From an uncultured Clostridia bacterium (lineage in GTDB: Bacteria; Bacillota; Clostridia; Oscillospirales; Oscillospiraceae): 63,274 bases of DNA. This document shows positions 3,318 through 36,058 of the stretch, one piece after another; position 1 is the stretch's first letter; every line of letters begins with the position of its first letter. The stretch is taken from the NCBI GenBank assembly GCA_946628965.1, contig CAMOXI010000005.1, forward strand, positions 1 to 63,274. The letters are read 5' to 3'. The notes beneath the pieces were generated by a model. The model was not told the origin of the DNA and made no database searches. It was given only the letters and a program-made list of their open reading frames with translations. Both the position numbers and the translations under genes were made by a program.

Positions 3318-3344
3318 TTTTTTCACATCGGATTTAAAGAGGGT

Positions 3345-5475: not shown

Positions 5476-5476
5476 A

Positions 5477-6589
5477 ATGCATATGAAGAAGTTTATCTGT
5501 TTCATTTTTATTGCTGTGCTCCTGCTGCCCGGCGTGTTTGCCGCAGCGGATGCGGAAACCGGGGCGCCGGAACGCGCGCCCGGCGAGTGGGTCATCACCG
5601 GCGAGAGCGCGGAGGAGATCCTGGCCCTGGCGGATAAACCGGGCCTGCGGCATATCGACGCCACGGCGAGCCGGGAGTACGAGGCGCTGCTCAAACTGCG
5701 GGAAGAACTGCCTGACTGTGACATTGACTGGGTCTACGAATTTCAGGGCGTCAGCTACCCCAGCGATACGACGGAGCTTAAGGTCACCGATATGACCGGG
5801 CTGGAGGACGCGCTGCGTTATCTCCCGGCGCTGACCGACGTGGATCTGCTGGAGGCCGGGGCGACCATTGAGGACCTGGATCGCTTCGACGCGATCCGGC
5901 CGGACATTTTCTGGCTCTGGGAATTTCGCTTTGACTGGTACAAGATCCGCACCGACATCCCCGTCTATTCCTCCCTGCTGGGCTACAAAACGCGCTTCGA
6001 CCTGGATCACTACTATCCGATCGTCAAATACTGCAAGCATCTGCGCGCCCTGGACCTGGGCCACAACGCCATCACCGACATCTCGATGATCGGCGATCTG
6101 CAGGAGCTGGAGGTGCTGATCCTGGCCGATAACCGCATCACCGACGCCAGCCCCATCGGCAGGCTGCACGACCTGGTTTTCCTTGAGCTGTTCATGAATT
6201 ACAACATCGAGGACTACAGCTTTCTCAACGAGCTGACGAAGATCAAGGATCTGAACCTCTGCTACTGCAAAACGCTGGATCACCTGGATTTCCTGGAGAA
6301 TATGCCCGATCTGGAGTTCGCCATGTTCAAGCGCACCAATCTTACGGAGGAGGATCTGGCGCCCTGGCGGGAGAAATACCCCGACGCGACGCTGGTCTAC
6401 TATGACGGCAATCCGGAATCCTCCGGCAGCGGCTGGCGCATGACCGGCCGCAACAAGCAGATCCGCACCGCTTTTGCCGACTGGCGCGAAATCGTCTCTT
6501 ATGAGCACTACAACGACTGGACCTTCCGCATCAACGGCGGCATCTTCCCGATCACCGATTTCTTCAGAGAGGATGACCCCTGGTGGTAA
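5477..6589 (+). CDS. Exported leucine-rich-repeat protein, copy 1
   Basis: A 370-residue protein with a signal peptide (basic MHMKKF, hydrophobic core, cleavage near V-F-A-A-A-D), so probably secreted. From about residue 190 it has LRR units: L-R-A-L-D-L-G-H-N-A-I-T-D-I-S-M-I, then L-E-V-L-I-L-A-D-N, L-V-F-L-E-L-F and K-D-L-N-L. The start could be the ATG at 5477 or at 5483. The latter gives the cleaner MKKF signal peptide. It is a close paralogue of the next gene but lacks its lipobox. Position in the operon suggests an envelope role. The ligand is unknown. Confidence 0.8.
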   Translation: MHMKKFICFIFIAVLLLPGVFAAADAETGAPERAPGEWVITGESAEEILALADKPGLRHIDATASREYEALLKLREELPDCDIDWVYEFQGVSYPSDTTELKVTDMTGLEDALRYLPALTDVDLLEAGATIEDLDRFDAIRPDIFWLWEFRFDWYKIRTDIPVYSSLLGYKTRFDLDHYYPIVKYCKHLRALDLGHNAITDISMIGDLQELEVLILADNRITDASPIGRLHDLVFLELFMNYNIEDYSFLNELTKIKDLNLCYCKTLDHLDFLENMPDLEFAMFKRTNLTEEDLAPWREKYPDATLVYYDGNPESSGSGWRMTGRNKQIRTAFADWREIVSYEHYNDWTFRINGGIFPITDFFREDDPWW

Positions 6590-6616
6590 GGCCGATCAAG
6601 GATTGAGGACTGTGAT

Positions 6617-7774
6617 ATGAAACGCATTTTTGGTATTGTACTGCTTCTGTGCCTGCTTTTGCTGCTGCCCGCCTGCGGCACGGCGGAAACCGCGGCACAG
6701 GCCGCGCCCGCGCAGGCCGCGGAACCAACGCCGGAGCCGACGCCCGAACCCACCCCGACTCCCACGCCGCCGCCCACCGAGTGGACGATCACGGACGAGA
6801 GCGCGGAGGAGATTCTGGCCCTGGCCGAGATCCCCAGCCTGCAGCATATCGACGCCACGGCGAGCAGAGAGTATGAGGCGCTGCTCGCGCTGCGGGAAAA
6901 GCTGCCCGACTGCGACATCGACTGGGAATATGAGTATCAGGGCGTGAGCTACCCCAGCGACACCACCGAGCTCAAGGTCACCGACATGACCGGGCTGGAG
7001 GACGCGCTGCGCTGTCTCCCGGCGCTGACGGACGTGGACCTGCTGGAGGCCGGAGCCGTGATCGAGGATCTGGACCGCTTTTCTGAGATCCGGCCGGACA
7101 TCTTCTGGCTCTGGGAATTCTCCTTCCACGGCTTCACCATCCGCACCGACGTGCCGGTCTACTCCTCGCTGCAGCCCATCGGCTACGTCCCCCGCGACGA
7201 GGTATACTACTACCCCATCCTCAAATACTGCACCAGGCTCAAGGCCCTGGACCTGGGCCACAACAACCTGCGCGACATCTCGCTCATCGGAAACATGAAG
7301 GATCTGCAGATCCTGATCCTGGCCGACGACCATCTGCAGGACGCCAGCTGCCTTGCCAATCTCCACGATCTGATCTACCTGGAGCTCTTCATGAATGACG
7401 AACTGGAGGATTTCAGCTTCCTCAAGTCCCTGACCAAGCTCAAGGATCTGAACCTCTGCTACTGCACGCACCTGACCTCGCTGGACTTCATGGAATACAT
7501 GCCCGATCTGGAGTTCATGCTGGTCAAGTATACAGGCCTCGACGTGGATTATTATAATGAAGTCAAGGCCAGCAATCCCCAGGTGCGCATGACCTTCTGG
7601 GACGGCGACAGGGAGTCCACCAACAGCGGCTGGCGCGACACGGCCCGCAACCATATGATCCGCAGCGCCTTCGCCAACTGGCCCTCCGTCGTCCGCTACG
7701 ACTATTACAATGATATGGACTTCGACTTTTCCGGGAAAATCTACCCGATCACCTACTTCGTGCGGGAGGACTGA
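6617..7774 (+). CDS. Leucine-rich-repeat lipoprotein, copy 2
   Basis: A 385-residue paralogue of the protein at 5477-6589. It starts with a lipoprotein signal peptide with lipobox L-P-A-C (Cys at about residue 18), followed by a low-complexity P-T-P/E-P-T spacer to about residue 55 that would lift the domain off the membrane. The LRR region follows the same order as copy 1 (L-K-A-L-D-L-G-H-N-N-L, L-Q-I-L-I-L-A-D-D, K-D-L-N-L-C-Y-C). The pair thus seems to have split into a released and a membrane-tethered form. Last gene of the envelope operon, followed by a strong terminator. Confidence 0.8.
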   Translation: MKRIFGIVLLLCLLLLLPACGTAETAAQAAPAQAAEPTPEPTPEPTPTPTPPPTEWTITDESAEEILALAEIPSLQHIDATASREYEALLALREKLPDCDIDWEYEYQGVSYPSDTTELKVTDMTGLEDALRCLPALTDVDLLEAGAVIEDLDRFSEIRPDIFWLWEFSFHGFTIRTDVPVYSSLQPIGYVPRDEVYYYPILKYCTRLKALDLGHNNLRDISLIGNMKDLQILILADDHLQDASCLANLHDLIYLELFMNDELEDFSFLKSLTKLKDLNLCYCTHLTSLDFMEYMPDLEFMLVKYTGLDVDYYNEVKASNPQVRMTFWDGDRESTNSGWRDTARNHMIRSAFANWPSVVRYDYYNDMDFDFSGKIYPITYFVRED

Positions 7775-12074: not shown

Positions 12075-13616
12075 ATGAGTCTTCCTGTTGTCAAGCGCGA
12101 TGAAAAAGGCATTGCCACCCTTTACGTCCACGACAAGCCCTTCTTTATGAGAAGCGGCGAGATCCACAACTCCAGCGCCTCCGACCCCGTGTTTCTCGAG
12201 GAAAAGCTCTGGCCCGCACTGCGCGGCCTGCACATGAACTCCGTCATCGTCCCCCTGTACTGGGAGCTGATCGAGCCGGAAGAGGGCAAATATAACTTCT
12301 CCCTGCTGGAGCAGATCGTTTCCTCCGCCCGCCGTGAAGGGCTGAAGCTCTGCTTCCTCTGGTTCGGCCTCTGGAAGAACGCCGAATCCATGTACGTCCC
12401 CGCCTGGGTGAAGAAGGACACCGAGACCTATTTCCGCGCCGAGAAGGTCAGCGGCGAGAAGATGACCACCATCTCCCCCCTCTGCGCCGCCGCCGTGGAG
12501 AAGGACCGCCGTGCCTTCACCGCCGTGATGCGCCGCATCCGCGAGATCGACAGCGAGGAGAACACCGTCGTCGTCATGCAGGTGGAGAACGAGATCGGCC
12601 TGCTCGGCACCGACCGCGACTACAGCAGGGCAGCGAACGAGGCCTTCTATGCGCCCATCCCCGAGAAGCTGGCCGCCGCCCTGGGCAAGAGCGGCACCTG
12701 GGAAGATGCCTTCGGTGAGGACGCTGGCGAGTATTTCATGGCCTGGCACTTCGGCTCCGCCGTGGAGACCATCGCCGCCTCCGGCAAGAAGGAGTACGAT
12801 CTGCCCTGCTACGCCAACGCCTGGCTGCGGCAGAGCCCCTGGTTCCCCGGCTCCTACCCCTCCGGCGGCCCCGTGGAGCGTGTGCAGCCCGTCTGGCGCG
12901 TCGCGGCCCCGTCCCTCTTCGCCTTCGGCCCGGACATCTACGTCCCCTACTGCGCCGACATCATGGACAGCTACGCCACTGAGGAAAACCCGCTCTTCAT
13001 CCCCGAAGTGCGCAAGGACGCCGTGGCCTCCTCCTATGCCCTCTACGCCAGCGGCGCCAAGAACGCCATCTGCTTCTCCCCCTTCGGCATCGAGGACCTG
13101 GCCCTGGATCCCAGCCAGCTGGACAAGCCGCCCATGGAGCTGATGATCGCCCTGAACATCGACCCCTCCGCCTTTGACATTACCGGCAGCAAGGAATGCC
13201 TCTCCGCCACCTATGACCTGCTGGAGCAGCTGGAGCCCATCTATCTCCAGAACCGCGGCACCGAGCATCTGCAGGTATGCGTGCGCCACGGTGAGACCGA
13301 CTACAGCGCCTTCCTGCGCTTCCGGGATTACGATCTCGTGATCAAGTACGGCCCGCGCATGAGCGGCAAGCCCCTGGGCTGCTGCTACGCCGTGGAGCTG
13401 AGCGAGGATAAGTTCCTCCTCGTCGGCCTCAACTGCTCGCCCGAGTTCCGTGTGAAGCCCGGCGACAAACACAGCTTCGACATCCTGCGTCTGGAAGAGG
13501 GCCGCGTCGTCAAGGGCGAGTGGGTCCCCGGCCGCGTCATGAACGGCGATGAGAAGATGGCCCTGCGCTTCGGCGACATGCCCTCCGCCCTGCTGGTGGA
13601 GCTGTATCGCTTCTGA
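12075..13616 (+). CDS. GH35/GH42-like beta-galactosidase with DUF5597-type C-terminus
   Basis: A 513-residue cytoplasmic enzyme with no signal peptide. The N-terminal TIM barrel starts with F-F-M-R-S-G-E-I-H-N-S and P-L-Y-W-E-L-I-E-P-E-E-G-K-Y-N-F. The predicted acid/base is E173 in Q-V-E-N-E-I-G and the nucleophile E311 in F-I-P-E-V-R-K-D, as in clan GH-A galactosidases. The C-terminal 150 residues resemble the DUF5597 beta-sandwich often found with such enzymes. It should remove terminal beta-galactosyl or related residues from imported oligosaccharides. AAAGGAG lies before the ATG. It is divergent from the AraC gene and may replace the broken lacZ. Confidence 0.8.
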   Translation: MSLPVVKRDEKGIATLYVHDKPFFMRSGEIHNSSASDPVFLEEKLWPALRGLHMNSVIVPLYWELIEPEEGKYNFSLLEQIVSSARREGLKLCFLWFGLWKNAESMYVPAWVKKDTETYFRAEKVSGEKMTTISPLCAAAVEKDRRAFTAVMRRIREIDSEENTVVVMQVENEIGLLGTDRDYSRAANEAFYAPIPEKLAAALGKSGTWEDAFGEDAGEYFMAWHFGSAVETIAASGKKEYDLPCYANAWLRQSPWFPGSYPSGGPVERVQPVWRVAAPSLFAFGPDIYVPYCADIMDSYATEENPLFIPEVRKDAVASSYALYASGAKNAICFSPFGIEDLALDPSQLDKPPMELMIALNIDPSAFDITGSKECLSATYDLLEQLEPIYLQNRGTEHLQVCVRHGETDYSAFLRFRDYDLVIKYGPRMSGKPLGCCYAVELSEDKFLLVGLNCSPEFRVKPGDKHSFDILRLEEGRVVKGEWVPGRVMNGDEKMALRFGDMPSALLVELYRF

Positions 13617-13664
13617 TTTGTGCCGAATGCACAGAAACAGCTCCCGGTTTTTGGCGCGAGAAAG

Positions 13665-13705
13665 TGACACATGTCATGGCTTAAGCTGGAATAATTCGGT
13701 AGAGT
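13665..13705 (+). promoter_or_regulatory. Crp/Fnr-type operator and -10 of the regulator gene
   Basis: The inverted repeat TGACA-CA-TGTCA (13665-13676) is preceded by GAGAAAG. A -10-like TAGAGT lies at 13700-13705, 35 bases from the start of the repeat. The same operator with the same spacing precedes the operon at 14593. An operator centred about 41 bases upstream of transcription start is the class II activator position of Crp/Fnr proteins, so autoactivation is likely. Confidence 0.75.
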
Positions 13706-13740: not shown

Positions 13741-14397
13741 ATGGAAATCATCAAAGACAAGGCTCTTCTGAACCGCCTTCTGAAAGAACATCATATTGAC
13801 GCGTTTTTCAGCAGCTGCCAGCCCCGCTTTACGCTCCTGCGCTACTGGCCCGGCGAAATGCTGACCACGCCCTTCGCGCCCAGCCAGTATCTGCAGTTCA
13901 TCCTCCGCGGCGAGCTCCTGCTCTACGACATGCCAACGGAGAACTCCACCGTCTCCCTGCAGACCAGCCACCAGGAGATCCGCATGATTGGGGATATGGA
14001 GCTGCTGGATGTGGACTTCGTCCCCTTCTTCGTGGAGGCCAGGAGCGAAGTCATCACCGCCGCGCTCTATCTGGAGCAGTATCGGGAGGCCCTGCTGAAA
14101 GACCCTGTTTTCCTGCAGCATGTCTGCCGGGACCTGGCGGCCAAGCTCCGCGCCGCCACCGACGTGTCCATGCATGTTACGCTGCGTGACCGGCTCTCAG
14201 CCTATCTGGATCGCTGCGGCGCCGGCTACGAGATCCGCGGTGTTGCCCGCCTGGCCGAGCAGCTCAACGTCAGTGAGCGGCAGATGATCCGCGTGCTCAA
14301 AAGCTTTTGTGCGGAGGGACGCCTGAGCCGCGTAAAGGCCGGCGTCTATCGCGTTCTGCCCCGCCCGGAAGGCGAACAGCCCTCCGCAGATCCCTGA
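13741..14397 (+). CDS. Crp/Fnr (YeiL-like) transcriptional regulator
   Basis: A 218-residue protein with an N-terminal cyclic-nucleotide-binding-like beta-roll (about residues 20-120, with F-I-L-R-G-E-L-L-L-Y-D and M-I-G-D-M-E-L-L-D-V-D) and a C-terminal winged helix (about residues 150-212, with V-A-R-L-A-E-Q-L-N-V-S-E-R-Q-M-I-R-V-L). The pattern of the first domain recalls YeiL of enterobacteria. Residues needed for cAMP binding and an Fnr-type cysteine cluster are not evident, so the signal is unknown. Identical operators upstream of this gene and of the 14593 operon indicate that it is their common activator. Confidence 0.85.
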   Translation: MEIIKDKALLNRLLKEHHIDAFFSSCQPRFTLLRYWPGEMLTTPFAPSQYLQFILRGELLLYDMPTENSTVSLQTSHQEIRMIGDMELLDVDFVPFFVEARSEVITAALYLEQYREALLKDPVFLQHVCRDLAAKLRAATDVSMHVTLRDRLSAYLDRCGAGYEIRGVARLAEQLNVSERQMIRVLKSFCAEGRLSRVKAGVYRVLPRPEGEQPSADP

Positions 14398-14450: not shown

Positions 14451-14494
14451 AAGCATTTTATACAAAATCCGGCTTCGGATTCCGTCAGAGAAAG

Positions 14495-14535
14495 TGACAT
14501 GTGTCAGGGAAAAGCACCGGCCGCTTCGTTATACT
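14495..14535 (+). promoter_or_regulatory. Crp/Fnr-type operator and promoter of the C-glycoside operon
   Basis: Perfect inverted repeat TGACA-TG-TGTCA (14495-14506), preceded by GAGAAAG exactly as at 13665. The -10 element TATACT lies at 14530-14535, again 35 bases from the start of the repeat, and there is no good -35. This arrangement suggests an activator-dependent class II promoter. Confidence 0.8.
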
Positions 14536-14592: not shown

Positions 14593-15738
14593 ATGGAAGA
14601 AAAAGTTCTCGGCTATGGCGTCATCGGCACCGGCGTCTACTGTGACCACTACTTCGGCACCCTGGGCCCCGTGTTCAAAAACCTGCGCCCGGTGGGCTGC
14701 TCGGACCTGAATGTGGAGGCCGCCAAGGCCGCCGCCGCGCGCTGGAACGTGCCCAAGGTCTACACCACGGAAGAGATGCTGGCGGACCCCGAGGTGGACA
14801 TCGTCATCATCCTCACCAACCCCGCCTCCCACTACAGCCTGACCATGGCCGCCCTGAAGGCCGGCAAGCACGTCTACTGCGAAAAGCCCCTGGCCGCGAG
14901 CCTGGAGCAGGCCAACGAGATCGTTGAATTTGCGGCAAAGCAGGGCCTCTTCGTCGGCGCCGCGCCCGACACCTTCCTGACTCCCGAGTTCCAGACCGTG
15001 CGCAAGCTGCTGGACGAGGGCGCCATCGGCAAGGTCATCAGCGTCACCGCCAACTACGTCGGCCCCGGCGCGGACCTCTGGCACCCCAACGCGGGCTACC
15101 TGTACAAGAAGGGCGTCGGCCCGGCCCTGGACATGGGCCCCTATTTCCTCACCTCGCTCGTCACCCTGCTCGGACCCATCGAGAGCCTCTTCGCCTACGC
15201 AAACCGCGGCTGGGATGTGCGCGAGATCTGGGGCAAGGACGTTGAGGTCGAGGTCAACACCAACTACTGCGGCGTGCTGAAATTCGCGAACGGCGTCATC
15301 GGCAACCTGAACCTGACCTATGACGAGTGGAAGTCCAGCCTGCCCGGCATGGAGATCTACGGCACCGAGGGCGTTCTCTTCGCTCCCGATCCCAACGCCA
15401 TGATGGGCCCCATCAAGCTGCTGAAGGCCGAGGATTTCAAGAACCTGGTCAACTCCAAGGGCGACAACGTGGGTGCGCGCCTGGGCGCCATCTATGGCCC
15501 CGAGACCATGGGCCTCTTCACCGAGATCGAGACCGTCGCGCCCCGGGTGGGCAACCAGCGCGGCTCCGGCGTTTCCGACATGGCCCGCGCCATCGTCGAG
15601 GGCCGCAAGCCCCGCGTCAGCGCCGAGCTCTGCCGCCACGTCACCGAGGGCATCAACGCCTTTGACGTCTCCGTCGCCACCGGCGAGCCCTACAAGATGA
15701 CCACCACCTTTGAGATGCCCGCAGCCTTGGAATTTTAA
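14593..15738 (+). CDS. Gfo/Idh/MocA family oxidoreductase, candidate C-glycoside 3-dehydrogenase (DgpA-like role)
   Basis: A 381-residue NAD(P)-dependent oxidoreductase. It has an N-terminal Rossmann fold with G-V-I-G-T-G-V, the family E-K-P motif at residues 97-99, and a C-terminal substrate domain with [11 protein letters not shown]. The next two genes encode the alpha- and beta-type subunits of a C-glycoside deglycosidase. In the known puerarin system an oxidoreductase of this family (DgpA) first oxidises the 3-hydroxyl of the sugar, so the same role is inferred here. First gene of the operon. The Shine-Dalgarno is GAGAGGAG. Family membership is certain, the substrate is not. Confidence 0.85.
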
Positions 15739-15751
15739 GGGAGGAACAAGA

Positions 15752-16624
15752 ATGTACCGCAATACGACCGTCGGCCCCAAGCGGGGCGTCGCCCTCTACA
15801 GCTACTCCGCCGAATTTGGCTTTGAAAAGACCCTCGAGGACTGCTTCGAGGATATGAAGGACATGGGCGCCACCGGCGTGGAGATTCTCGCCAACACCCA
15901 TATTGAGAATTATCCCTATCCCACCGATGAGTGGGTCAACTACTGGTTCTCCCTCTGCGACAAGTACCAGGTGGAGCCCGTGGAGTACGGCCACTGGATC
16001 GACTGCCGCGTGCTGCAGGACCGCATGCTCAGCACTGAGGAGGCCGTCGCCCGCCTGGAGCAGGATCTGCGCCTGGCCCACCGCCTGGGCTTCAAGGTGC
16101 TGCGCACCAAGATGAGCGTGGTGGACGACGCCCTGAACCCCGTGGAGAACTGGCGCGAGATCATCAAGGGCGCCCTGCCCCTGGCCGAGCGTCTGGGCCT
16201 GCAGATGTGCCCGGAGATCCACATCCCCACCAATCTCAAGAGCCAGATGATCCAGGACTACGTGGACTTCATCAAGGAGACCGGCACGAAGAGCTTCGGC
16301 CTCAACATCGACTTCTCCGTCTTCCGCCACAAGTTCGACGAGGGCGAGTTCGTGGATCCCCACTTCGTTCCCAACGAGCCGGAGGACATCATCCCCCTGC
16401 TGCCCTACATCTACTGCTGCCACGCCAAGTTCATCCACATGAACGACGAGTTTGAGGAGACCACCATCCCCTATAAGGAAGTGCTGGAGATCCTGCGCGA
16501 CCACGGCTGGAACGGCTATCTTCTCTCGGAGTACGAGGGCGCTGACAAGTACGACCAGGGCTACGAGGTCGGCCAGACCCTCCGCAGGCACCACATCATG
16601 ATGAAGAACATTCTCGGTTATTAA
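15752..16624 (+). CDS. Sugar phosphate isomerase/epimerase-fold protein, candidate C-glycoside deglycosidase catalytic (alpha) subunit
   Basis: A 290-residue TIM barrel of the xylose-isomerase-like fold. Likely metal ligands are E155 (P-E-I-H), D187 (N-I-D-F), H224 or H229 (C-C-H-A-K-F-I-H) and E260 (L-S-E-Y). In the described enzymes (DgpC, DfgA, CarC) this fold binds Mn and cleaves the C-C bond of a 3-oxo-C-glycoside together with a small beta subunit. That subunit type is encoded 12 bases downstream, which is the main reason for this call. The ATG at 15752 has GGGAGG and is preferred over an upstream in-frame codon at 15710. Confidence 0.8.
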
Positions 16625-16636
16625 GGAGGCGGTACC

Positions 16637-17077
16637 ATGGAAAAACAGGTTATTCAGTCGGTCGGTTTCCGGAACATTGAAGAGAACGGCGAGATCGTCG
16701 GCTTCCAGCTCAAGATCCGCCTGCCCTATTACCGCGGCGTGTACCTCAGCCAGATCCGTCCCGGCCACCTGATCGTGGACGGCGAGAGCTTCGGCGCTGA
16801 TGAGATCATGTGGCGCGTCAACGGCGAGGATTATACCTACGCCGATATGCGCCAGGACTGCCAGACCCACTGGCATCCGATGGAGCCCGCCACCCTGATC
16901 GTCAAAAAGCCCGGCGGCCTCAAGCAGGGCTTCCACGATCTGACCTACGGCTTCTGCTGCACCCACTCCTACATGCCCCCCTTCATGGAGGCGCTGGAGG
17001 ATCCGGACAAGCCCGCTGTTATCTACATGCGCGAGTTCGGCCAGAACACCAACAGCCGCCGGCTTTTGATCGTGTAA
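16637..17077 (+). CDS. DUF6379/CGDB domain protein, candidate C-glycoside deglycosidase beta subunit
   Basis: A 146-residue protein matching the small subunit family first called DUF6379 and later CGDB (C-glycoside deglycosidase beta). Typical parts are R-L-P-Y-Y-R-G-V-Y-L-S-Q-I near residue 30, F-G-A-D-E-I-M-W-R-V-N-G, and the C-terminal V-I-Y-M-R-E-F-G-Q. In DgpB-DgpC-type enzymes it packs on the TIM-barrel subunit and is required for activity. It follows that gene by 12 bases with the ribosome site GGAGG. The pairing is the strongest evidence that this operon acts on C-glycosides, but which one cannot be told from sequence. Confidence 0.85.
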   Translation: MEKQVIQSVGFRNIEENGEIVGFQLKIRLPYYRGVYLSQIRPGHLIVDGESFGADEIMWRVNGEDYTYADMRQDCQTHWHPMEPATLIVKKPGGLKQGFHDLTYGFCCTHSYMPPFMEALEDPDKPAVIYMREFGQNTNSRRLLIV

Positions 17078-17081
17078 AAAC

Positions 17082-17126
17082 GGATTGCCACACCAGTGAC
17101 ATCGGTCACTGGTTCGCAATGACAGA
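17082..17126. repeat. Intergenic palindromic repeat inside the operon
   Basis: GGATTGCCACACCAGTGAC faces GTCACTGGTTCGCAATGACA, with CCAGTGAC/GTCACTGG as the perfect core stem. The text resembles the GGATTGCCAC...CGCAATGACA repeats that I know from gut Clostridia. It fills the 64-base gap between the CGDB gene and the second oxidoreductase and could affect mRNA stability in the operon. Confidence 0.7.
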
Positions 17127-17141
17127 AAAGGAGTAATCTTT

Positions 17142-18185
17142 ATGCTGAAAATCGGTATTTTAGGCTGCGGCAAGATCGCCCAGGTGCGTCACATTCCCGA
17201 GTACGCGGATAATCCCAACTGCGAACTCGTCGGCTTCTTCAACCCCACCAAATCCCGCGCCGAGGACATGGCTGCCAAATACGGCGGAAAAGCTTACGAC
17301 TCCGCTGAGGAACTGCTGGCGGATCCTGAGATCGATGCAGTGAGCGTCTGCGCGGCAAACAACGCCCACGCGGAGCTGACCATCAAGGCCCTCAAGGCCG
17401 GCAAGCACGTCCTGTGTGAGAAGCCCATGGCCATCTCCCTGGCTGACTGCGAGGAGATGGTGAAGGTCGCAAAAGAGGAAGGCAAGCTCCTGATGATCGG
17501 CCAGAACCAGCGCCTCACCAACGCCCACAAGCTGGCAAAGCAGATGATCGCGGACGGTGAGATCGGCAAGGTCATCACCTTCCGCACCTCCTTCGGTCAC
17601 GGCGGCCCCGAGACCTGGAGCATCACCCCGGGCAAGAACACCTGGTTCTTCGACAAGACCAAGGCCGCCATGGGCGCCATGGCCGACCTGGGCATCCACA
17701 AGACCGACCTGATCCAGTTCCTGCTGGGCGAGAACGTGGTGCGCACCACCGCCAAGCTCACCACCCTGGATAAGCGCGGCGCGGACGGCAATCTCATCGG
17801 CGTGGACGACAACGCCATCTGCATCTACGAGATGGCGGACGGCGTCATCGGCACCATGACCGCCTCCTGGACTTATTATGCCGCCGAGGACAACTCCACG
17901 GTTATCTACGGCACCGAGGGCGAGCTGCGCATCTACGACGATCCCGCCCACTCCATCGTGCTCAAGAAGAAGGGCGGCGAGGTCAAGTACTTCGACGTGG
18001 AGCAGATCCAGACCAACGACAACCAGACCAAGTCCGGCATCATCGACCTGTGGGTGGACTGCCTGCTGAAAGGCGAGGAATCCCCGATCAGCGGTGAGAG
18101 CGTCCTCTCCGCCATGCGTGCGGTCTTCGCCTCCATGGAAAGCTCCGAGACCGGCAAGGCTGTGGACATCCCGGCGAACCGGTAA
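17142..18185 (+). CDS. Gfo/Idh/MocA family oxidoreductase (second of the operon)
   Basis: A 347-residue NAD(P)-dependent oxidoreductase with G-I-L-G-C-G-K-I-A at the N-terminus, C-E-K-P near residue 90 and D-L-G-I-H-K-T-D near residue 185, the usual catalytic Asp/His region. It is only distantly like the oxidoreductase at 14593. Paired with the next TIM-barrel gene, it may reduce the keto-sugar released by C-C cleavage, or act on a different glycoside by oxidation and elimination. Both are inference. The start follows AAAAGGAG. Confidence 0.85.
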   Translation: MLKIGILGCGKIAQVRHIPEYADNPNCELVGFFNPTKSRAEDMAAKYGGKAYDSAEELLADPEIDAVSVCAANNAHAELTIKALKAGKHVLCEKPMAISLADCEEMVKVAKEEGKLLMIGQNQRLTNAHKLAKQMIADGEIGKVITFRTSFGHGGPETWSITPGKNTWFFDKTKAAMGAMADLGIHKTDLIQFLLGENVVRTTAKLTTLDKRGADGNLIGVDDNAICIYEMADGVIGTMTASWTYYAAEDNSTVIYGTEGELRIYDDPAHSIVLKKKGGEVKYFDVEQIQTNDNQTKSGIIDLWVDCLLKGEESPISGESVLSAMRAVFASMESSETGKAVDIPANR

Positions 18186-18197
18186 GGAGGTACATAC

Positions 18198-19121
18198 ATG
18201 ATTCATTTTGGACTTTTGACCGCGATCCTGGACGGCTGGAACTTTGAAGAGGCTGTCGACATCGCGGCGGAGATGGGCTTCGAGTGCCTGGAAGTGGCCT
18301 GCTGGCCCGCCGGCAAGGCGGAGCGCCGCTACGCCGGTGTTTCCCACATCGACGCCGAGCGCGTGCTGGAGGACGACGCCTACGCCGAACATGTGAAGAA
18401 GTACGTCGCCGACAAGGGCATGCACATCTCTTCCCTGGCCTACTACCCCAATGTACTGGATCCCAACCCGGAGAAGAGCGAACCCGCCATCGCCCATCTG
18501 AAGGCCCTCATCAAGGCATCCTCCAAGCTGGGCGTCGGCATGGTGACCACCTTCATCGGCAGGGATCAGCACAAGACCGTGGATGAGAACATCGAGCTCT
18601 TCAAGCAGGTCTGGCCGCCGATCATCAAGCTGGCGGAGGAGAACAACGTGAAGGTCGCCATCGAGAACTGCCCGATGCTCTTCGGCCCCGATCAGTGGCC
18701 CGGCGGGCAGAACCTGATGTGCACCCCGGCCATCTTCCGGAAGCTCTTTAGTATCATCGACAGTCCGAACTTCGGTCTGAACTTCGACCCCAGCCACTAC
18801 GTGTGGCAGGGCCTGGACTACATTCAGACCGTGCACGAGTTCAAGGACAAGCTCTTCCACATCCACTTCAAGGACATCAAGCTCTATCCCGAGAAGCTTA
18901 AGCAGGTCGGCGTGCTGGCCTATCCGCTGGAGTACATGAGCCCGAAGATCCCGGGCCTGGGCGATGTGGACTGGGGCGCCTACGTCTCCGCCCTCAACGA
19001 CATCCGCTACAACGGCGACGCCGTGATCGAGGTGGAGGACAAGGCCTTCGAGGGCAGCCGCGAGGATATCCTGAACTCCATCCGTCTTGCCAAGCGCTAC
19101 CTCAACAACTTCATCATCTGA
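18198..19121 (+). CDS. Sugar phosphate isomerase/epimerase family protein (second TIM barrel)
   Basis: A 307-residue xylose-isomerase-like TIM barrel of the IolE/IolI type. Likely metal ligands lie in A-I-E-N-C-P (Glu near 155), N-F-D-P-S-H (Asp and His near 198), H-I-H-F-K-D and V-I-E-V-E-D (Glu near 280). Such proteins isomerise, epimerise, hydrate or eliminate keto-sugars. No beta-subunit gene lies next to it, so it is more likely a stand-alone enzyme of the downstream pathway than a second C-C lyase. The 12-base gap and GGAGG indicate tight coupling to the oxidoreductase. Confidence 0.85.
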   Translation: MIHFGLLTAILDGWNFEEAVDIAAEMGFECLEVACWPAGKAERRYAGVSHIDAERVLEDDAYAEHVKKYVADKGMHISSLAYYPNVLDPNPEKSEPAIAHLKALIKASSKLGVGMVTTFIGRDQHKTVDENIELFKQVWPPIIKLAEENNVKVAIENCPMLFGPDQWPGGQNLMCTPAIFRKLFSIIDSPNFGLNFDPSHYVWQGLDYIQTVHEFKDKLFHIHFKDIKLYPEKLKQVGVLAYPLEYMSPKIPGLGDVDWGAYVSALNDIRYNGDAVIEVEDKAFEGSREDILNSIRLAKRYLNNFII

Positions 19122-19176
19122 GCGTCTATTCTTGCGCACAGAGCGCAAATAGAAAATATAAGGAGGATTTACCCGC

Positions 19177-20568
19177 ATGCCTACCCAGGAAAAAACCAAT
19201 CCGAAACTGCTGGTTTCCTACAGCTTTGGTGAAATCGCGTGCCAGATGAGCTGGTACATGATCAACACCTACCTGATGGCGTTCTACACCGACGTCGTCA
19301 CGCTCTCCGCCGGCGCGATCTCCATGATCATGCTGATCGCCCGTGTCTGGGACACCATCAACGACCCGATGATGGGCAACATCGCTGACCACACCAAGTC
19401 CCGCTGGGGCCGCTTCCGTCCCTACATGATCTTCGGCGCTCCCGTCCTCGCCATCTTCAACATCCTGACCTTCACCGTGTTCCCTGTGACCGGCTGGCTG
19501 AAGGTCGTCCTGGCTCTCGTCACCTATGTGGGCGCCGGCATGGCCTACACCGCCTGCTCCATCGCCTACCAGGCGCTGCAGAACGTCATCGCCATTGACT
19601 CCCGCGTCCGCATGAACCTGGCCACCGCCCGCGGCCTGGGCTCCCAGATCATCGGCGTCATCCTCTCCCTCGTCGCGATGCCCATGATCCTCCACTTCTC
19701 CCAGACCATGAACGCCGAAGGCGCCAAGATCGCCGACGCCAAGGGCTACTTCGTCGCAACCGTGATCCTGTCCGTCCTGATGATCCCGCTGTTCTGGCTG
19801 TGCGCTGCCGGCTGCAAGGAGACCTACACCGAGAAGCTCCACGCCGGCCACCAGGAGAAGATCGGCTTCTTCCAGAGCATCAAGGAGCTCGTCAAGAACG
19901 ACCAGCTGCTGATGGTGGTTCTGGCCACTGTGTTCGGCGCCATCTGCGTCTCCGGCCGTATGGGCATGCTGTTCTACTACATCGTCTACGTTGTCGGCGG
20001 CGATAACCCCTTCGCCCTGATCTCCCCGACCTTCACCACCATGACCGTCGCCGCCCTGATCGGCGTGGCGATCCTGCCCTGGACCACCAAGTGGTTCGGC
20101 AAGCGCAACTGGATGCTGATCCTGAACGCCGTCATGGTCATCGGCTTCATCCTGATGTTCCTGTTCCCGACCAAGACGCTCCTGTTCCCGCTGTCCTTCA
20201 TCTGCGGCGTTGCCAACTCCGGCGCCAACATCTGCCCGGGCATGATCGGCGACTCCCTCGAGTACGGCGACTGGAAACTTGGCAAGCGCCAGGAAGGCCT
20301 GGTCGCCTCCTTCCTCAGCTTCGGCGTGAAGCTCGCCACCGCGTTCGTCGGCTCTGTGGGCGTGCTGCTGCTCTCCGCTGTCGGCTACGTTCCCAACGCC
20401 GCCCAGACTCCCGCTGCCTGCAACGGCATCAACGTCGTTGTCAATATCATCCCCGCTGTGATCGGCGTTCTCTCTATGGTTCCTCTGTTCTGGTACAAGC
20501 TCGACGACAAGCGCGTCGCCGAGATCCGTGCCGACCTGGAAGCCGGCAAGCACGCCTGGGACAAGTAA
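19177..20568 (+). CDS. GPH family (MelB-like) glycoside:cation symporter
   Basis: A 463-residue membrane protein with about 12 transmembrane segments. The signature D-T-I-N-D-P-M-M-G-N-I-A-D-H-T-K-S-R-W-G-R-F-R-P-Y near residues 60-85 is typical of glycoside-pentoside-hexuronide:cation symporters. It is the only transporter of the operon and so should import the substrate, either as the intact glycoside or after trimming. None of the neighbouring hydrolases has a signal peptide, which argues for uptake before cleavage. AGGAGG precedes the ATG. The ion is not known. Confidence 0.9.
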   Translation: MPTQEKTNPKLLVSYSFGEIACQMSWYMINTYLMAFYTDVVTLSAGAISMIMLIARVWDTINDPMMGNIADHTKSRWGRFRPYMIFGAPVLAIFNILTFTVFPVTGWLKVVLALVTYVGAGMAYTACSIAYQALQNVIAIDSRVRMNLATARGLGSQIIGVILSLVAMPMILHFSQTMNAEGAKIADAKGYFVATVILSVLMIPLFWLCAAGCKETYTEKLHAGHQEKIGFFQSIKELVKNDQLLMVVLATVFGAICVSGRMGMLFYYIVYVVGGDNPFALISPTFTTMTVAALIGVAILPWTTKWFGKRNWMLILNAVMVIGFILMFLFPTKTLLFPLSFICGVANSGANICPGMIGDSLEYGDWKLGKRQEGLVASFLSFGVKLATAFVGSVGVLLLSAVGYVPNAAQTPAACNGINVVVNIIPAVIGVLSMVPLFWYKLDDKRVAEIRADLEAGKHAWDK

Positions 20569-20586
20569 TTTCATAAGCTTAAACTG

Positions 20587-20623
20587 AGATATGACCGGAT
20601 CGCGCAAGCATCCGGTCATATCT
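20587..20623 (+). repeat. Strong intra-operon hairpin before the esterase ribosome site
   Basis: AGATATGACCGGAT pairs perfectly with ATCCGGTCATATCT around a 9-base loop. No T run follows. Instead the AGGAGG of the esterase gene comes 3 bases later. It is more likely an mRNA processing or stability element than a terminator. Confidence 0.6.
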
Positions 20624-20636
20624 ATAGGAGGACAAT

Positions 20637-21671
20637 ATGTATTACGAAAGCATCACCCTCAGCAAAGAGAGAAATGTCAGCCTCACCGCCATGCTCCAGG
20701 GCGTGGGCGGCGAGTTTCGCGGCATTGAGGCCCGGCCCGCCGTGCTGGTGATCCCCGGCGGCGGCTACATGTTCTGCTCCGACCGGGAGGCCGACCCCGT
20801 GGCGGCCGCCTATCTGCGCGCAGGCTATCACACCTTCATTCTCCGCTACTCCGTAGGGGCGGACGCAGTCTGGCCCCGCCCGCTGCAGGACTATGAGGAG
20901 GCCATGGCGCTCATCGACGCGCACGCGGAGGAGTGGGGCGTTCTCCGGGACAAGATCGCCGTTGTGGGCTTTTCCGCGGGCGGCCATCTGGCCGGCGCCG
21001 CGGCGACCCTGGCGGAGCGCCGCCCGGCGGCCGCGATCCTCGGCTACGCCGTGCTCCGGGAGGAGACCGCCCATGAGCTGGGCGACGACAAGCCCGATAT
21101 CCCCTCCCATGTGGACGAAAACACCTGCCCCTGTTTCCTTTTCGCCACCCGCACGGACAGCGTGGTGCCCATTCAGAACACGCTGGACATGATGAACGCC
21201 CTGAACCGCCATCAGACCAGCTTTGAATGCCACATCTATCCCTACGGCCCCCACGGCTTTTCCACCGGCGACCCCTCCATCCAGGGGCTGGAGACGGTCT
21301 TCCCCCGCCGCGCCGAGAACTGGGTGGACGACAGCATCGCCTTCCTGCGGGATCTCTTCGGCGATTTCGGCCCCCAGGGCATGACGGAGCCCCGGCTACG
21401 CGCCCACGTCAACGACGACGCCATGGCCTGGCTGAGCCTGGACTGCAGCATTGCCCGCATCTTCGGCAATCCCGAGGCGCGGCGGGTGCTGGCCTCCACC
21501 ATTGAAAAAATGCGGGCACGCATCGTCCCCTTCGCGCCGGACATGAGCTTTGAAGACATGATGCAGGCCCTCGGCAAAATGACCCTGCGGGAGCTTCTGA
21601 CGGAGCGCGGCATCGACACGGAGCGCTTTGACGAGCTGAACGCCGCCCTGCAAAAGATCCCCAACATCTGA
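20637..21671 (+). CDS. Alpha/beta hydrolase (BD-FAE/acetyl-xylan-esterase-like) with a C-terminal extension
   Basis: A 344-residue cytoplasmic hydrolase. The oxyanion motif P-G-G-G-Y occurs near residue 40 and the nucleophile is S113 in G-F-S-A-G-G-H. Asp in T-R-T-D-S-V-V-P and His in G-P-H-G-F-S complete the triad. The first 245 residues match small carbohydrate or feruloyl esterases. About 85 extra residues follow (I-A-R-I-F-G-N-P-E onward), helical in appearance and not assigned to a family. It may remove acetyl or other acyl groups from imported plant glycosides. Confidence 0.8.
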   Translation: MYYESITLSKERNVSLTAMLQGVGGEFRGIEARPAVLVIPGGGYMFCSDREADPVAAAYLRAGYHTFILRYSVGADAVWPRPLQDYEEAMALIDAHAEEWGVLRDKIAVVGFSAGGHLAGAAATLAERRPAAAILGYAVLREETAHELGDDKPDIPSHVDENTCPCFLFATRTDSVVPIQNTLDMMNALNRHQTSFECHIYPYGPHGFSTGDPSIQGLETVFPRRAENWVDDSIAFLRDLFGDFGPQGMTEPRLRAHVNDDAMAWLSLDCSIARIFGNPEARRVLASTIEKMRARIVPFAPDMSFEDMMQALGKMTLRELLTERGIDTERFDELNAALQKIPNI

Positions 21672-21685
21672 TCAGGAGGAGGAAT

Positions 21686-23308
21686 ATGGAACACAAGCTG
21701 CATAACCCCATCCTTCCCGGCTTTTACCCCGATCCCTCGATCTGCCGGGTGGGAGAGGACTTCTACCTTGTCTGCTCCAGCTTTGAGCTCTGCCCGGGCA
21801 TCCCCTTGTTTCACAGCCGGGATCTGCAGCACTGGGAGCAGCTCTGCTATGTGATGACGCCGGAAAACGGCTTCCACGTGGAGAAAAACTGCGGCAACGG
21901 CGGCGTCATGGCCCCCACGATCCGCTATCACAAGGGCACCTTCTATCTCATCAACTGCAACTTCGGCGATCGGGGCAACTTCATCGTCACGGCCAAAGAC
22001 CCCGCCGGCCCCTGGTCGGAGCCCCACTGGCTCACGGACGTGCCGGGCATCGACGCCTCCATCTTCTTCGACGAGGACGGCGCGTGCTACATCATGGGCA
22101 CCGCGAACAACTGGCCAGACGGCAAGGGCGGCCTGCGCCAGGGCATCTGGGCGGCAAAGTATGACATTGAGCACTTCCGCATGGCCGGCGAACCACACGC
22201 CCTCTGGGGCGGCGCCATGGCGGGCGTTGCCTCCCCCGAAGCGCCGCACATCTACCACATTGGAAAATACTATTACTTGCTGATCGCCGAGGGCGGTACC
22301 GAGCAGTACCACTCCGCCACCATCGCCCGCAGTGAATCGGTCTTCGGCCCCTATGAGGGCTGCAAAGCCAATCCCGTGCTGACCATGCGCCATCTGGGGC
22401 AGCGCGCCGCCATCCAGAATGCGGGCCACGCGGACCTCATCGAGCTGCCGGACGGCAGCTGGTACGCGGTGTTCCTGGCCTCCCGTCTCATCGGCGGCGA
22501 GAGCAAGAACCTGGGCCGCGAGACCTTTATCGTCCCCGTGCGCTGGGAGCTGGACTGGCCCCTCTTCACGCCTGACACCGGCAAGGTGGAGTGGAAATAC
22601 GACTTCCCGGAGAGCCTGCCCTGGACAGAGCTGCCCGAAAAACCGCTGCGTGACGACTTCCGGAACGGCCTTGGCCTCGACTGGTGCTTCTGGGGCAAGC
22701 CCTATGAGCAGTTCTGGGAGACCGGGAAAGACGGCCTTTCCCTGCGCTGCCTCCCCCAGGCGCTGGCCGACCCGCTGCAGCCCATGAGCATGGAGGTCAG
22801 CCATTCGGAGGAGAATTTCGTCTCCTTCGTCGCCCGCCGCCGGCTGCAGCCCCACTGCCGCTTTACGACGAAGCTGCGCTTTGCGCCCGAAAGAGCGGAG
22901 AGCGCCGGCATCGCCGTGGTGCAGGCCATGAACCATCAGTACCACCTGCAGCTTGCGCAGAAGGATGGCGGGACTGTGCTGCAGCTGCTGCTCTTTACGG
23001 CGGACTATGCGCTGCCGCCCTATATCCCGGGCTTCAGCTCGGTCACGAACCGGCAGCTGCTGGCGGAAATGCCCTGGAACGGGGAGAGCATTGTGCTGGA
23101 GATGGAGCTTATTGAGAACAATTATATCTTCCGTTACGGCGCCGATGAGCAGCATATGACGGAGCTTGCCCGCGCCGACGGCGCCGTCATCAACCCCGAG
23201 AAGGTGGGCTGCATGGTGGGCGAGATGCTGGGCCTCTTTGCCAGCTCCAACGGCGAGAAGAGCGAGAACCGCGCGCACTACGCCTGGGCGGAGTATGAAA
23301 ATTTCTAA
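21686..23308 (+). CDS. Glycoside hydrolase family 43 (beta-xylosidase/arabinofuranosidase-like)
   Basis: A 540-residue enzyme with an N-terminal five-bladed propeller. The predicted general base is D16 (G-F-Y-P-D-P-S), the pKa-tuning Asp D123 (G-I-D-A-S) and the general acid E185 (S-P-E-A-P-H). The last 200 residues form the beta-sandwich typical of two-domain GH43 beta-xylosidases. No signal peptide, so cytoplasmic. It would release xylose or arabinose from short glycosides. It starts 14 bases after the esterase gene with AGGAGGAG. The exact sugar is not decided by the sequence. Confidence 0.9.
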   Translation: MEHKLHNPILPGFYPDPSICRVGEDFYLVCSSFELCPGIPLFHSRDLQHWEQLCYVMTPENGFHVEKNCGNGGVMAPTIRYHKGTFYLINCNFGDRGNFIVTAKDPAGPWSEPHWLTDVPGIDASIFFDEDGACYIMGTANNWPDGKGGLRQGIWAAKYDIEHFRMAGEPHALWGGAMAGVASPEAPHIYHIGKYYYLLIAEGGTEQYHSATIARSESVFGPYEGCKANPVLTMRHLGQRAAIQNAGHADLIELPDGSWYAVFLASRLIGGESKNLGRETFIVPVRWELDWPLFTPDTGKVEWKYDFPESLPWTELPEKPLRDDFRNGLGLDWCFWGKPYEQFWETGKDGLSLRCLPQALADPLQPMSMEVSHSEENFVSFVARRRLQPHCRFTTKLRFAPERAESAGIAVVQAMNHQYHLQLAQKDGGTVLQLLLFTADYALPPYIPGFSSVTNRQLLAEMPWNGESIVLEMELIENNYIFRYGADEQHMTELARADGAVINPEKVGCMVGEMLGLFASSNGEKSENRAHYAWAEYENF

Positions 23309-23328
23309 AGGTCTAAAGGAGCAGTGAC

Positions 23329-25533
23329 ATGAAACTGACGGAACAGCAGAAAGCTTTTGTGGAGGATCTGCTCTCCCGCATGACGCTGGAAGAGAAGATC
23401 GGCCAGATGAACCAGGAATCCCCCTCCATCGTGGGCGGCTTTGACGTGCCCTTCGAGGAGCTCATCGAGATGATGACCGACGGGCGCATTTCCCAGGAGG
23501 AGTTCGGGCGCATCATGTCCACAGCAAAGCAGGACTTCCACGAGGAGGACATCCGCGCCGGGCGCGTGGGCTCCATGATGGTGAACGACCCCCGGGAGAA
23601 CAACCGCCTGCAGAAGATCGCCGTGGAGGAGAGCCGCCTGGGCATCCCCCTCATCATCGGCTTTGACGTAATCCACGGTTTTCGCAGCGTGTTTCCCATC
23701 GCCATCGCCGAGGCCTGCAGCTTTGACGATGCGCTTTTTGAAGAGACCGCCCATATGGCGGCCAGAGAGAGCCGCGCACACGGCATCAACTGGAACTTCG
23801 CGCCCATGATCGACGCGGCGCGGGACAGCCGCTGGGGCCGCGTCTCCGAAGGCCCCGGCGAGGACCCCCTGCTGGGCAGCCGCTTTGCCCGGGCCAAGAT
23901 CCGCGGCCTGCAGAACGATCACAGCAGCGTGAAAAGCTATGTGGCCGCCTGCACCAAGCACTATGTGGCCTACGGCGCCTGCGAGTCCGGCCGGGACTAC
24001 AACACCACCTCCATGTCTGTCTCGAACCTGTATAACGTGTATCTCCCCGCCTTCCGCGCGGCGATGGACGAGGGCGCGGCCACGGTCATGGCCGCCTTCA
24101 ACGACTTAAACGGCGTCCCCTGCACGGTGAACAAGTGGCTGCTGCGGGACGTGCTCAAAGGCGAGTTTGGTCTGGAGGGCTTCGTCGTCAGTGACGCCAA
24201 CGCCATCCGCGAGTGCGTGACCCACGGCATCGCCGAGGATGACCGGGACGCGGGCATTCAGGCCGCCATTGCCGGCATGGACATGGATATGGGCACCCAT
24301 ATCTACAAGGATCACCTGCAGCAGGAAGTGGAAAAGGGCACGGTGCCGATGAGCGTCATCGACGAAGCGGTGCGGCGCATCCTCTCCGTCAAGGTCTGGC
24401 TGGGGCTCTTCGAGAATCCCTTCGTGTCCGACGAGGACATCGAGACCTATGAAAAGGGCCTCCCGGCCGCGCACGTGGCCCTCTGCCGCAAGGCCGCCGA
24501 GGAGTCCTTGGTGCTGCTGAAGAACGAGGGGAATCTGCTGCCGCTGAACCGCGGGCAGAAGATCAGCCTTGTGGGCAAGCTGGCCGACGACCGGAACGAG
24601 GTCTGCGGCGCCTGGGCCATGGCCTGGAAGCCGGAGGACTGCGTGTCCATACGCGCGGGCCTGGAGGCCGCCGGAGCCGACGTGCGCTACTACCCCTGCG
24701 GCGGCCCGGAGGGTGAGATCGACTTTGACGAGGCCGACAAAGCCTGCGCCGAGGGCGATGTGATCGTGGCCGTTGTGGGTGAGACCGACGCCATGTCCGG
24801 CGAGGCCAGCTCCAAAGCGGACACCTCGCTCCCCGGCGAACAGCGGGAGCTGCTGGCCTATCTGCTGGCCTCCGGCAAACCCGTGATCACAGTGCTGATG
24901 AACGGGCGGCCCCTGGCTCTGCAGTGGGAGGCGGAGAACCTGCCCGCGATCCTGGAGGCCTGGCACCTGGGCATCCGCATGGGCGACGCGGTGGCGGCCG
25001 TGCTGCTGGGGGATGTGAATCCCGCCGGCAAGCTGTCCTCCTCCTTCCCCGCGGTGACCGGGCAGTGCCCCATCTACTACAACCATCCCAGCACCGGCCG
25101 CCCCGGCAGCAAGAGCAAGTTCACCTCCCGCTATCTGGACGCGCCCTGGGATGCGCTCTTCCCCTTCGGCTTTGGCCTGAGCTATACGAGCTTTGCCTAC
25201 CGCGACCTGACCGTGACCGAGCAGGGCCATGCGCTGGAGATCGCCGTGCAGCTGAAAAACACCGGTGAGCGCGAAGGGACCGAGGTCGTGCAGCTCTACA
25301 CCCAGGATGTGGCGGCCAGTCTCGTGCGCCCGGTGAAGGAGCTGAAGGACTACCGCCGTGTGAGCCTGCAGCCCGGCGAGGAGCGGGAGATCCGCTTCAC
25401 GCTTCCGAAGGCCGCTCTGGGCTTCTACGACAACGAGGGCAGGTACCGCCTGGAGGACGGCCTCTTCCGCGTCTTCGTCGGCGGCAGCTCCCGGGACGTG
25501 CTGGAGCAGGAGCTCTCCCTTCGCTTTTCCTGA
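23329..25533 (+). CDS. Glycoside hydrolase family 3 beta-glucosidase/beta-xylosidase
   Basis: A 734-residue enzyme with the GH3 order: a TIM barrel, an alpha/beta sandwich, and a C-terminal fibronectin-III-like domain from about residue 620. The predicted nucleophile is D289 in V-V-S-D-A-N-A-I. K-H-Y-V-A-Y-G near residue 208 and A-P-M-I-D near 163 are family motifs. No signal peptide. It would hydrolyse beta-linked glucose or xylose from the imported compound inside the cell. Last gene of the operon, 20 bases after GH43. No clear terminator follows. Confidence 0.9.
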   Translation: MKLTEQQKAFVEDLLSRMTLEEKIGQMNQESPSIVGGFDVPFEELIEMMTDGRISQEEFGRIMSTAKQDFHEEDIRAGRVGSMMVNDPRENNRLQKIAVEESRLGIPLIIGFDVIHGFRSVFPIAIAEACSFDDALFEETAHMAARESRAHGINWNFAPMIDAARDSRWGRVSEGPGEDPLLGSRFARAKIRGLQNDHSSVKSYVAACTKHYVAYGACESGRDYNTTSMSVSNLYNVYLPAFRAAMDEGAATVMAAFNDLNGVPCTVNKWLLRDVLKGEFGLEGFVVSDANAIRECVTHGIAEDDRDAGIQAAIAGMDMDMGTHIYKDHLQQEVEKGTVPMSVIDEAVRRILSVKVWLGLFENPFVSDEDIETYEKGLPAAHVALCRKAAEESLVLLKNEGNLLPLNRGQKISLVGKLADDRNEVCGAWAMAWKPEDCVSIRAGLEAAGADVRYYPCGGPEGEIDFDEADKACAEGDVIVAVVGETDAMSGEASSKADTSLPGEQRELLAYLLASGKPVITVLMNGRPLALQWEAENLPAILEAWHLGIRMGDAVAAVLLGDVNPAGKLSSSFPAVTGQCPIYYNHPSTGRPGSKSKFTSRYLDAPWDALFPFGFGLSYTSFAYRDLTVTEQGHALEIAVQLKNTGEREGTEVVQLYTQDVAASLVRPVKELKDYRRVSLQPGEEREIRFTLPKAALGFYDNEGRYRLEDGLFRVFVGGSSRDVLEQELSLRFS

Positions 25534-35795: not shown

Positions 35796-35807
35796 TGTTT
35801 TTTCCTC

Positions 35808-36037: not shown

Positions 36038-36058
36038 ATGCGCTATTCAGTTGGCCCC

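Follow-up and report, generated by a model that had tools for sequence, protein, structure and literature searches.

The closest described relative of the locus reported here is dfgABCDE of Eubacterium cellulosolvens, whose C-glycoside deglycosidase (CGD), EuCGD, is formed by DfgA and DfgB and was active on C6- and inactive on C8-glycosylated compounds in published assays (PMC8563793). In the same account, the metal ligands of the alpha subunit are two Glu, Asp, His, and Lys, accompanied by a catalytic His, and docking tied the rejection of the C8-glucoside orientin to Leu128 of the alpha and Pro115 of the beta subunit (PMC8563793). The dgpABC system of Dorea sp. PUE, with PuCGD (DgpC-DgpB), shares with the present locus an oxidase, both CGD subunits, and the same chemistry, but it is more distant in sequence, was C8-selective in published assays, and has a lid domain in the alpha subunit that the Dfg type is without; its cluster is described as also holding transporters, together with accessory genes whose role is unclear (PMC8398226). 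In the human gut bacterium Enterenecus sp900549885, dfgA and dfgB are reported to be adjacent and surrounded by carbohydrate-processing genes (PMC12101588), a setting that may resemble the one described below. A sequence of oxidation, elimination, hydration, and reduction has been described for analogous operons (PMC10628242). Here we analyzed a 63,274-nt stretch of an uncultured Clostridia bacterium of the Oscillospiraceae (assembly GCA_946628965.1, contig CAMOXI010000005.1; hereafter the window), in which nine genes at 14593–25533 probably constitute one Dfg-type row for the import of decorated C-glycosyl flavones, the removal of their O-linked and acyl decorations, and the cleavage of their C–C bond.

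The genes at 15752..16624 and 16637..17077 (both on the plus strand, as are all features below unless stated) are well supported as those of a Dfg-type CGD predicted to cleave C-glycosides. The top Protein Data Bank (PDB) match of the first product was DfgA of E. cellulosolvens (7bvs_A), aligned over the full length with 522 bits, an E value of 3.8e-156, and 213 identities in 290 positions, and that of the second was the corresponding DfgB (7bvs_B; 208 bits, 7.2e-61, 94 of 146). The 16637 product also matched the CGDB profile PF19906 with 127.8 bits against a cut-off of 27.6 (E value 2.1e-37), confirming the family named for it in the first-pass annotation of the window; this was the only CGDB match in the whole assembly, which is incomplete (2.18 Mb, 134 contigs, 74.8% complete). 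In the alpha subunit, a predicted Mn-dependent TIM barrel, the metal-ligand and catalytic-His motifs EIH, DFSVF, CHAK, and SEYEG (E155/H157, D187, H224/K226, and E260) were kept, and the same motifs are common to 7bvs DfgA and, by the printed alignment, DgpC. The residues linked to C6 selectivity were likewise kept, namely L128 in the alpha subunit and P114 in the beta subunit, which aligns with Pro115, and the alpha loop 121–133 aligned without gaps. Because EuCGD acted on C6-glycosides only in those assays and these residues are retained, the predicted substrates are of the isovitexin or isoorientin type and not puerarin, which is an 8-C-glucoside. EuCGD itself is characterized as an alpha4-beta4 complex with a shared active site that cleaves 3''-oxo-6-C-glucosyl flavones. 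The first-pass annotation had proposed C-glycoside cleavage from the gene set known for puerarin and other C-glycosides; the predicted cleavage stood, on DfgA and DfgB homology and the kept residues, and the match was to the dfg (C6) type and not to dgp.

The nine open reading frames (ORFs) lie on one strand with gaps of 12–68 nt and a purine-rich, ribosome-site-like stretch ahead of every start, and are likely carried on one transcript. ORF listing together with Pfam and NCBIfam searches agreed with the first-pass annotation on the number, strand, and families of the genes, and the three families that it had taken as the C-glycoside set were present, but the core comprises five genes rather than three. 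It opens with a DfgE-like Gfo/Idh/MocA (GFO) oxidoreductase, a predicted C-glucoside 3-oxidase (14593..15738), and continues after dfgA and dfgB with a second GFO (GFO2; 17142..18185), predicted to be a 3-oxo-glucose reductase or glycoside 3-oxidase, and an AP_endonuc_2 TIM barrel (TIM2; 18198..19121), a predicted 2-hydroxy-3-keto-glucal hydratase. Then follow a GPH sugar:cation symporter (19177..20568; TIGR00792, 361.5 bits against 231.35), an alpha/beta-hydrolase esterase (EST) of the BD-FAE type (20637..21671; Pfam BD-FAE 2.3e-20), which scored below the lp_1002 arylesterase cut-off (NF052620, 124.7 against 300 bits), a glycoside hydrolase of family GH43 with a GH43_C2 domain (21686..23308), and a GH3 beta-glucosidase of the BglX type (23329..25533; NF011678, 697.4 against 666 bits). 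Pfam cut-offs were passed for GFO, AP_endonuc_2, MFS_2, BD-FAE, GH43 with GH43_C2, and GH3. The GH43 product, a predicted alpha-L-arabinofuranosidase or beta-xylosidase, was closest in the PDB to BoGH43B (3.5e-94) and beta-xylosidases, and the GH3 product to JMB19063 and periplasmic beta-glucosidases. The syntenic block begins upstream of the nine genes with a GH35-like beta-galactosidase carrying DUF5597 (12075..13616; Pfam DUF5597 6e-23, GH35 1.6e-9; NCBIfam NF051902 narrowly below the cut-off, 475 against 500 bits) and a YeiL-like Crp/Fnr-family regulator (13741..14397). No signal-peptide-like start was seen in the esterase, GH43, GH3, or GH35 products, as judged from the hydropathy of the first 40 residues alone; with the GPH symporter, this points to import of the intact glycoside and hydrolysis inside the cell.

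The two oxidoreductases differ in their relationships. The 14593 product was 45% identical to a Clostridium scindens GFO encoded two genes from a TIM barrel plus GFO pair (L096; loci of the comparison carry L numbers and genomes G numbers). C. scindens is reported to have the O-glucosidase DfgCD as well as a DfgE that shares 54% identity with its E. cellulosolvens counterpart (PMC11170127), and we infer that the L096 genes are these. GFO2 was closer to DgpA, with 34% identity to a DgpA piece against 26% for the 14593 product and PDB E values of 2e-34 (its best match, DgpA 7xr9) against 7.6e-19, so that the name DgpA given to 14593 in the earlier annotation is uncertain. Both GFOs contain EKP; D-x-x-x-H was kept in 17142, and D-M-G-P-Y stands in 14593 and its C. 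scindens relative. The EKP lysine and D-x-x-x-H are what we take to be the DgpA/DfgE glycoside 3-oxidase motifs. Weakly, we favor 14593 as the oxidase and 17142 as the reductase. The TIM2 product resembled AtHYD (8ro4) in fold, sequence, and the DPSHxVxQxxDY...HxKD motif, was closer to SCO6571 and AtHYD than to IolE, and is predicted to hydrate 2-hydroxy-3-keto-glucal. The Agrobacterium tumefaciens operon of AtHYD (GlycDH, AtOGE, AtHYD, and Gfo) follows the same logic of oxidation, elimination, hydration, and reduction, but in the window a CGD takes the place of OGE as eliminase and a Gfo protein that of GlycDH as predicted oxidase, and the hydrolases are additional. An assignment of 17142 and 18198 as DfgCD was dropped, as they were only 22–28% identical to the C. 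scindens TIM plus GFO pairs taken as DfgCD. Among the 120 matches listed each for 18198 and the C. scindens GFO, most of them nameless, no entry was named E. cellulosolvens. Orthologues of 17142 and 18198 were also seen at three loci of same-genus genomes with no CGD (L129, L130, and L134, from G003, G016, and G029). There they stand with a further GFO, an ORF of 271 residues, and ABC-importer-like genes, and the group may serve the use of some other glycoside or a polyol.

A single scan across species genomes yielded 56 loci, among which those with dfgA at least 88% identical form the window clade; genes were called from codon usage, and some were cut or missed (e.g., in L132). At the identity thresholds used, the full nine-gene order was found in eight of the 56 loci (L023, L025, L027, L028, L029, L031, L032, and L065); the window clade has 11 loci in which 10 kb follow dfgA, and these are eight of them. 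The exceptions were L026, without GH3, L030, in which dfgE lies 3.7 kb away and GPH, EST, GH43, and GH3 are missing, and L073, without TIM2 and with its upstream part outside the locus sequence. Recurrence of the same order in eight of 11 loci indicates that the row is more than a chance arrangement. In the 14 window-clade loci extending past dfgB, 17142 followed every time and 18198 in all but one, and GH35 stood near dfgE in ten of the 13 showing dfgE; GH35 copies with 58–61% identity also occurred near dfgAB in four Mediterraneibacter loci. As to habitat, L028, L029, and L031 came from goat or buffalo stomach and L063 from sheep. Outside the clade, rearranged clusters of dfgAB with EST, GH43, GH3, or GPH were present in Butyrivibrio (L049 and L053), a metagenome-assembled genome of an uncultured Clostridia (L047), Streptococcus (L064), and Mediterraneibacter (L067). 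In L043, L049, and L053, dfgB is followed by an ORF of some 800 residues whose start looks cupin-like (by eye), and the YeiL-like regulator had no match. Within the assembly of the window itself, contig C90 (6052 bases; L091) carries a second copy of GFO2-TIM2-GPH-EST-GH43, with identities to the window of 99, 93, 99, 85, and 87%, respectively; as these resemble the identities of L023, the copy probably stems from a variant strain whose DNA stayed in the assembly.

Gene content pointed in the same direction. In 36 genomes of the same genus, EST (at least 69%) and GH43 (at least 79%) occurred in exactly the three with dfgE-A-B-GFO2 (G015, G033, and G034) and in none of the 33 others (Fisher p = 1.4e-4, a test that ignores relatedness); since these genomes are the sources of L028, L024, and L025, this result is not independent of the synteny count. 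In a sample of 397 Lachnospiraceae genomes, 34 of which had a CGD above cut-off, a CGD was present in 8/9 genomes with a GH3 of at least 62% identity vs. 26/388 others (p = 1e-8; 7/8 and p = 1e-7 without the Butyrivibrio centre). The GH3 copies at this level lay within 20 kb of a CGD in six of ten cases, compared to none of 11 at 48–53% (p = 0.004; 0.008 without the centre's copy). The counts of the GH3 and EST searches are lower bounds, as at most two candidates per genome were scored for GH3 and at most five for EST.

A shared, predicted control element lies ahead of the row. The palindrome GTGACA-N2-TGTCAC was present in all 14 dfgE upstream regions compared (the window and 13 related loci), with 10–12 of 12 positions matching, and its center lay 29 nt before a conserved TATACT in 13 of them and 28 nt in L031, while the remaining intergenic DNA was largely variable. 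In the window, this site is GTGACATGTGTCAG (14494..14507) and the predicted −10 element is TATACT (14530..14535); with TATACT set as −12 to −7, the 29 nt place the palindrome center at about −41.5. A site at about −41.5 occupies the class II activator position known from Escherichia coli CRP. The exact sequence GTGACANNTGTCA occurs in the window only twice, at 14494 and as GTGACACATGTCAT (13664..13677), the predicted operator of the YeiL-like regulator gene, whose start lies 77 nt after that of the palindrome. Where the YeiL-like gene stands apart (L026, L032, and L065), a palindrome site precedes it as well. No such palindrome was found in the window before GPH, EST, or GH35 (best before GPH and EST, 7/12). 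A palindrome at 17096, ahead of 17142 (11/12), was set aside, since no other scanned locus had at least 11/12 there. Among distant loci, L043, L046, L047, L049, L053, L066, L067, and L175 gave no site of at least 11/12, and L064 has one site with no mapped gene start nearby. The regulator is called only YeiL-like because it reached 84.2 of the 180 bits required by NF007707 (E value 9.6e-24); its cNMP_binding and HTH_Crp_2 matches were weak and below cut-off, and a PDB search returned nothing up to an E value of 1. A consensus promoter scan performed at shuffle level (three sites against a mean of 2.8); the dfgE promoter is visible only through locus comparison, and no Rfam match reached the gathering score in the block. 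The YeiL-like protein is predicted to activate the set at the GTGACA-N2-TGTCAC site.

Taken together, a route for decorated C-glycosyl flavones can be proposed. The GPH symporter would import a C-glycosyl flavone carrying extra sugars or acyl groups. Inside the cell, the esterase, GH43, and GH3 would remove these groups, perhaps together with the upstream GH35. An NAD-dependent GFO, by homology most likely 14593, would then oxidize C3 of the C-linked glucose, and DfgA-DfgB, on strong homology, should release the aglycone by beta-elimination, leaving 2-hydroxy-3-keto-glucal. TIM2 is predicted to hydrate this to 3-oxo-glucose, and GFO2 to reduce 3-oxo-glucose to glucose with the NADH of the oxidation step, which would make the cycle redox-neutral. 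The YeiL-like regulator would turn the set on from the palindrome about 41.5 bp before the start. Compounds of a fitting kind are reported from barley leaves, including isovitexin 2''-O-arabinoside and 2''-O-glucoside, saponarin, a 7-O-(6''-sinapoyl)-glucoside, and feruloyl- or sinapoyl-glucosides (PMC8466441); by logic, GH43, GH3, and the esterase are candidates for such decorations and DfgE with DfgA-B for the 6-C-glucose, so that grass flavones fit as diet. The known part of this scheme is Dfg-type C-deglycosylation, on which the window resembles the E. cellulosolvens system in DfgA/DfgB identity, five-gene core, and EuCGD-type loop and selectivity residues. The row here opens with the DfgE-like GFO, and the apparent variant part is the linked symporter, esterase, GH43, and GH3, conserved in the block with GH35 and the YeiL-like regulator; the E. 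cellulosolvens sequences compared were those of DfgA and DfgB. A directed search of the open PMC library for hydrolases such as GH43 beside CGD clusters listed no paper that mentions GH43. Only tentatively do we extend the scheme to a dedicated regulon by which ruminant-gut Oscillospiraceae would fully deglycosylate the decorated C-glycosyl flavones of grasses; in it, one activator at one class-II-type site would control the set, glucose would be freed with no net use of NAD, and the CGD-linked GH3, perhaps with GH43, esterase, and GH35, would be flavonoid O-glycosidases and not hemicellulases.

Several observations weigh against a single row, some concerning the hydrolases and others GFO2 and TIM2. 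The main alternative holds that two neighboring systems, a complete five-gene C-deglycosylation operon and, unrelated to it, an intracellular module (GPH, esterase, GH43, GH3, and the upstream GH35) for acylated arabinoxylan or xyloglucan fragments, are adjacent only because both serve plant feeding. The relationship of GH43 to BoGH43B and beta-xylosidases would suit it, promoters could lie in the 55-nt gap ahead of GPH and the 68-nt gap ahead of EST, and L030 has the five core genes without the hydrolases. In NK3B98, GPH-GH3-GH43-GH35-EST had no dfgA or dfgB match in the 19 kb taken, dfgAB lying elsewhere in the genome, so the hydrolase module can stand alone. Only six of the 40 distant dfgA loci (57–85%, many incomplete) had EST, GH43, or GH3 at the thresholds used, in other orders (L042, L047, L049, L053, L064, and L067), and 34 had none; in the same genus, G009 and G014 have CGDs (dfgA 73% in G014) without an EST or GH43 orthologue. 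CGDs were likewise enriched in Lachnospiraceae with GH3 only at 48–53% (4/9 genomes, p = 0.0016); plant-feeding genomes that have both may therefore account for some of the GH3 signal. Restricted to CGD-bearing genomes, linkage was 6/9 vs. 0/5 copies (p = 0.031; 0.075 without the centre), and the EST link was weak (CGD in 4/14 EST genomes, p = 0.024; 3/13, p = 0.085 without the centre). Set against this are the order kept in eight of 11 loci, the rearranged CGD clusters of other genera, the six of ten close GH3 copies near a CGD, and the conserved predicted operator, which precedes dfgE but neither GPH nor EST, and we regard two separate systems as a serious but unlikely explanation. The joint breakdown of O-decorated C-glycosides put forward in the first-pass annotation would fit the conserved gene order, the GH3 counts, and the predicted promoter and is tempered by NK3B98 and the scarcity of hydrolases at distant loci.

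Within the core, GFO2 and TIM2 might instead belong to an IolG-IolE-like (inositol) polyol pathway unrelated to glycoside cleavage. IolG and IolE were indeed their best NCBIfam matches, and the pair stands beside ABC-importer-like genes in CGD-less genus-mates, while a C. scindens orthologue of 18198 (63%, L090) lies away from other window-gene matches; the two genes therefore need not serve C-glycosides. The scores, however, were far below the cut-offs (162.9 of 355 bits and 41.9 of 290 bits, respectively), and 18198 has the closer relatives named above. Homologues of 17142 also accompany CGDs, directly before dfgA in L043 (52%) and within 3 kb of the dfgAB pair in L047 (54%), and orthologues of 18198 (58–61%) adjoin CGDs in Mediterraneibacter and Streptococcus, where CGD pairs, 18198-like TIM barrels, and GFO genes cluster, mostly with a kinase-like gene (named from its N-terminus). 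A polyol pathway is accordingly improbable in our estimation. We give still less credence to the possibility that the five core genes act mainly on flavonoid or phenolic O-glucosides, with C-glycoside cleavage as a side activity. The CGD PuCGE is reported to eliminate 3-keto-O-glucosides as well, and plant glycosides are mostly O-linked (PMC10628242); DfgCD pairs, too, are reported to cleave flavonoid O-glucosides (PMC11170127). Yet DfgA-B belongs to the EuCGD type, selective for C6, and shares its cavity residues, a predicted beta-glucosidase for O-glucosides is already present in the row as GH3, and 17142 and 18198 are distant from the C. scindens pairs.

Grasses and cereals commonly contain C-glycosyl flavones, whose C–C bond resists ordinary glycosidases. 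A conserved row that joins C–C cutting to import, de-esterification, and O-glycoside hydrolysis would offer an ordered, testable pathway for their breakdown in the ruminant gut. The proposed row also predicts a regulator with its DNA site and a candidate hydratase acting after C–C cleavage in gut Firmicutes, and it marks a GH3 subclade as possible flavonoid glycosidases.

Elsewhere in the window, two NAGPA phosphodiester-glycosidase proteins are encoded within 1211–4403 (1211–2260 and 3345–4403), with a family-less ORF of similar size between them, and leucine-rich-repeat proteins at 5429–7774. A lysine riboswitch (Rfam RF00168, 82.7 bits) at 35869–36043 on the minus strand closely precedes a gene of the Na+/H+ antiporter family (34293–35810, minus strand), which possibly encodes a lysine transporter. 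An ordinary heat-shock operon, hrcA-grpE-dnaK-dnaJ, occupies 40046–45142. Further downstream, 48821–59545 encodes a 3574-residue BspA-type leucine-rich-repeat protein (LRR_5, 18 stretches), followed by one of 509 residues (59803–61332).

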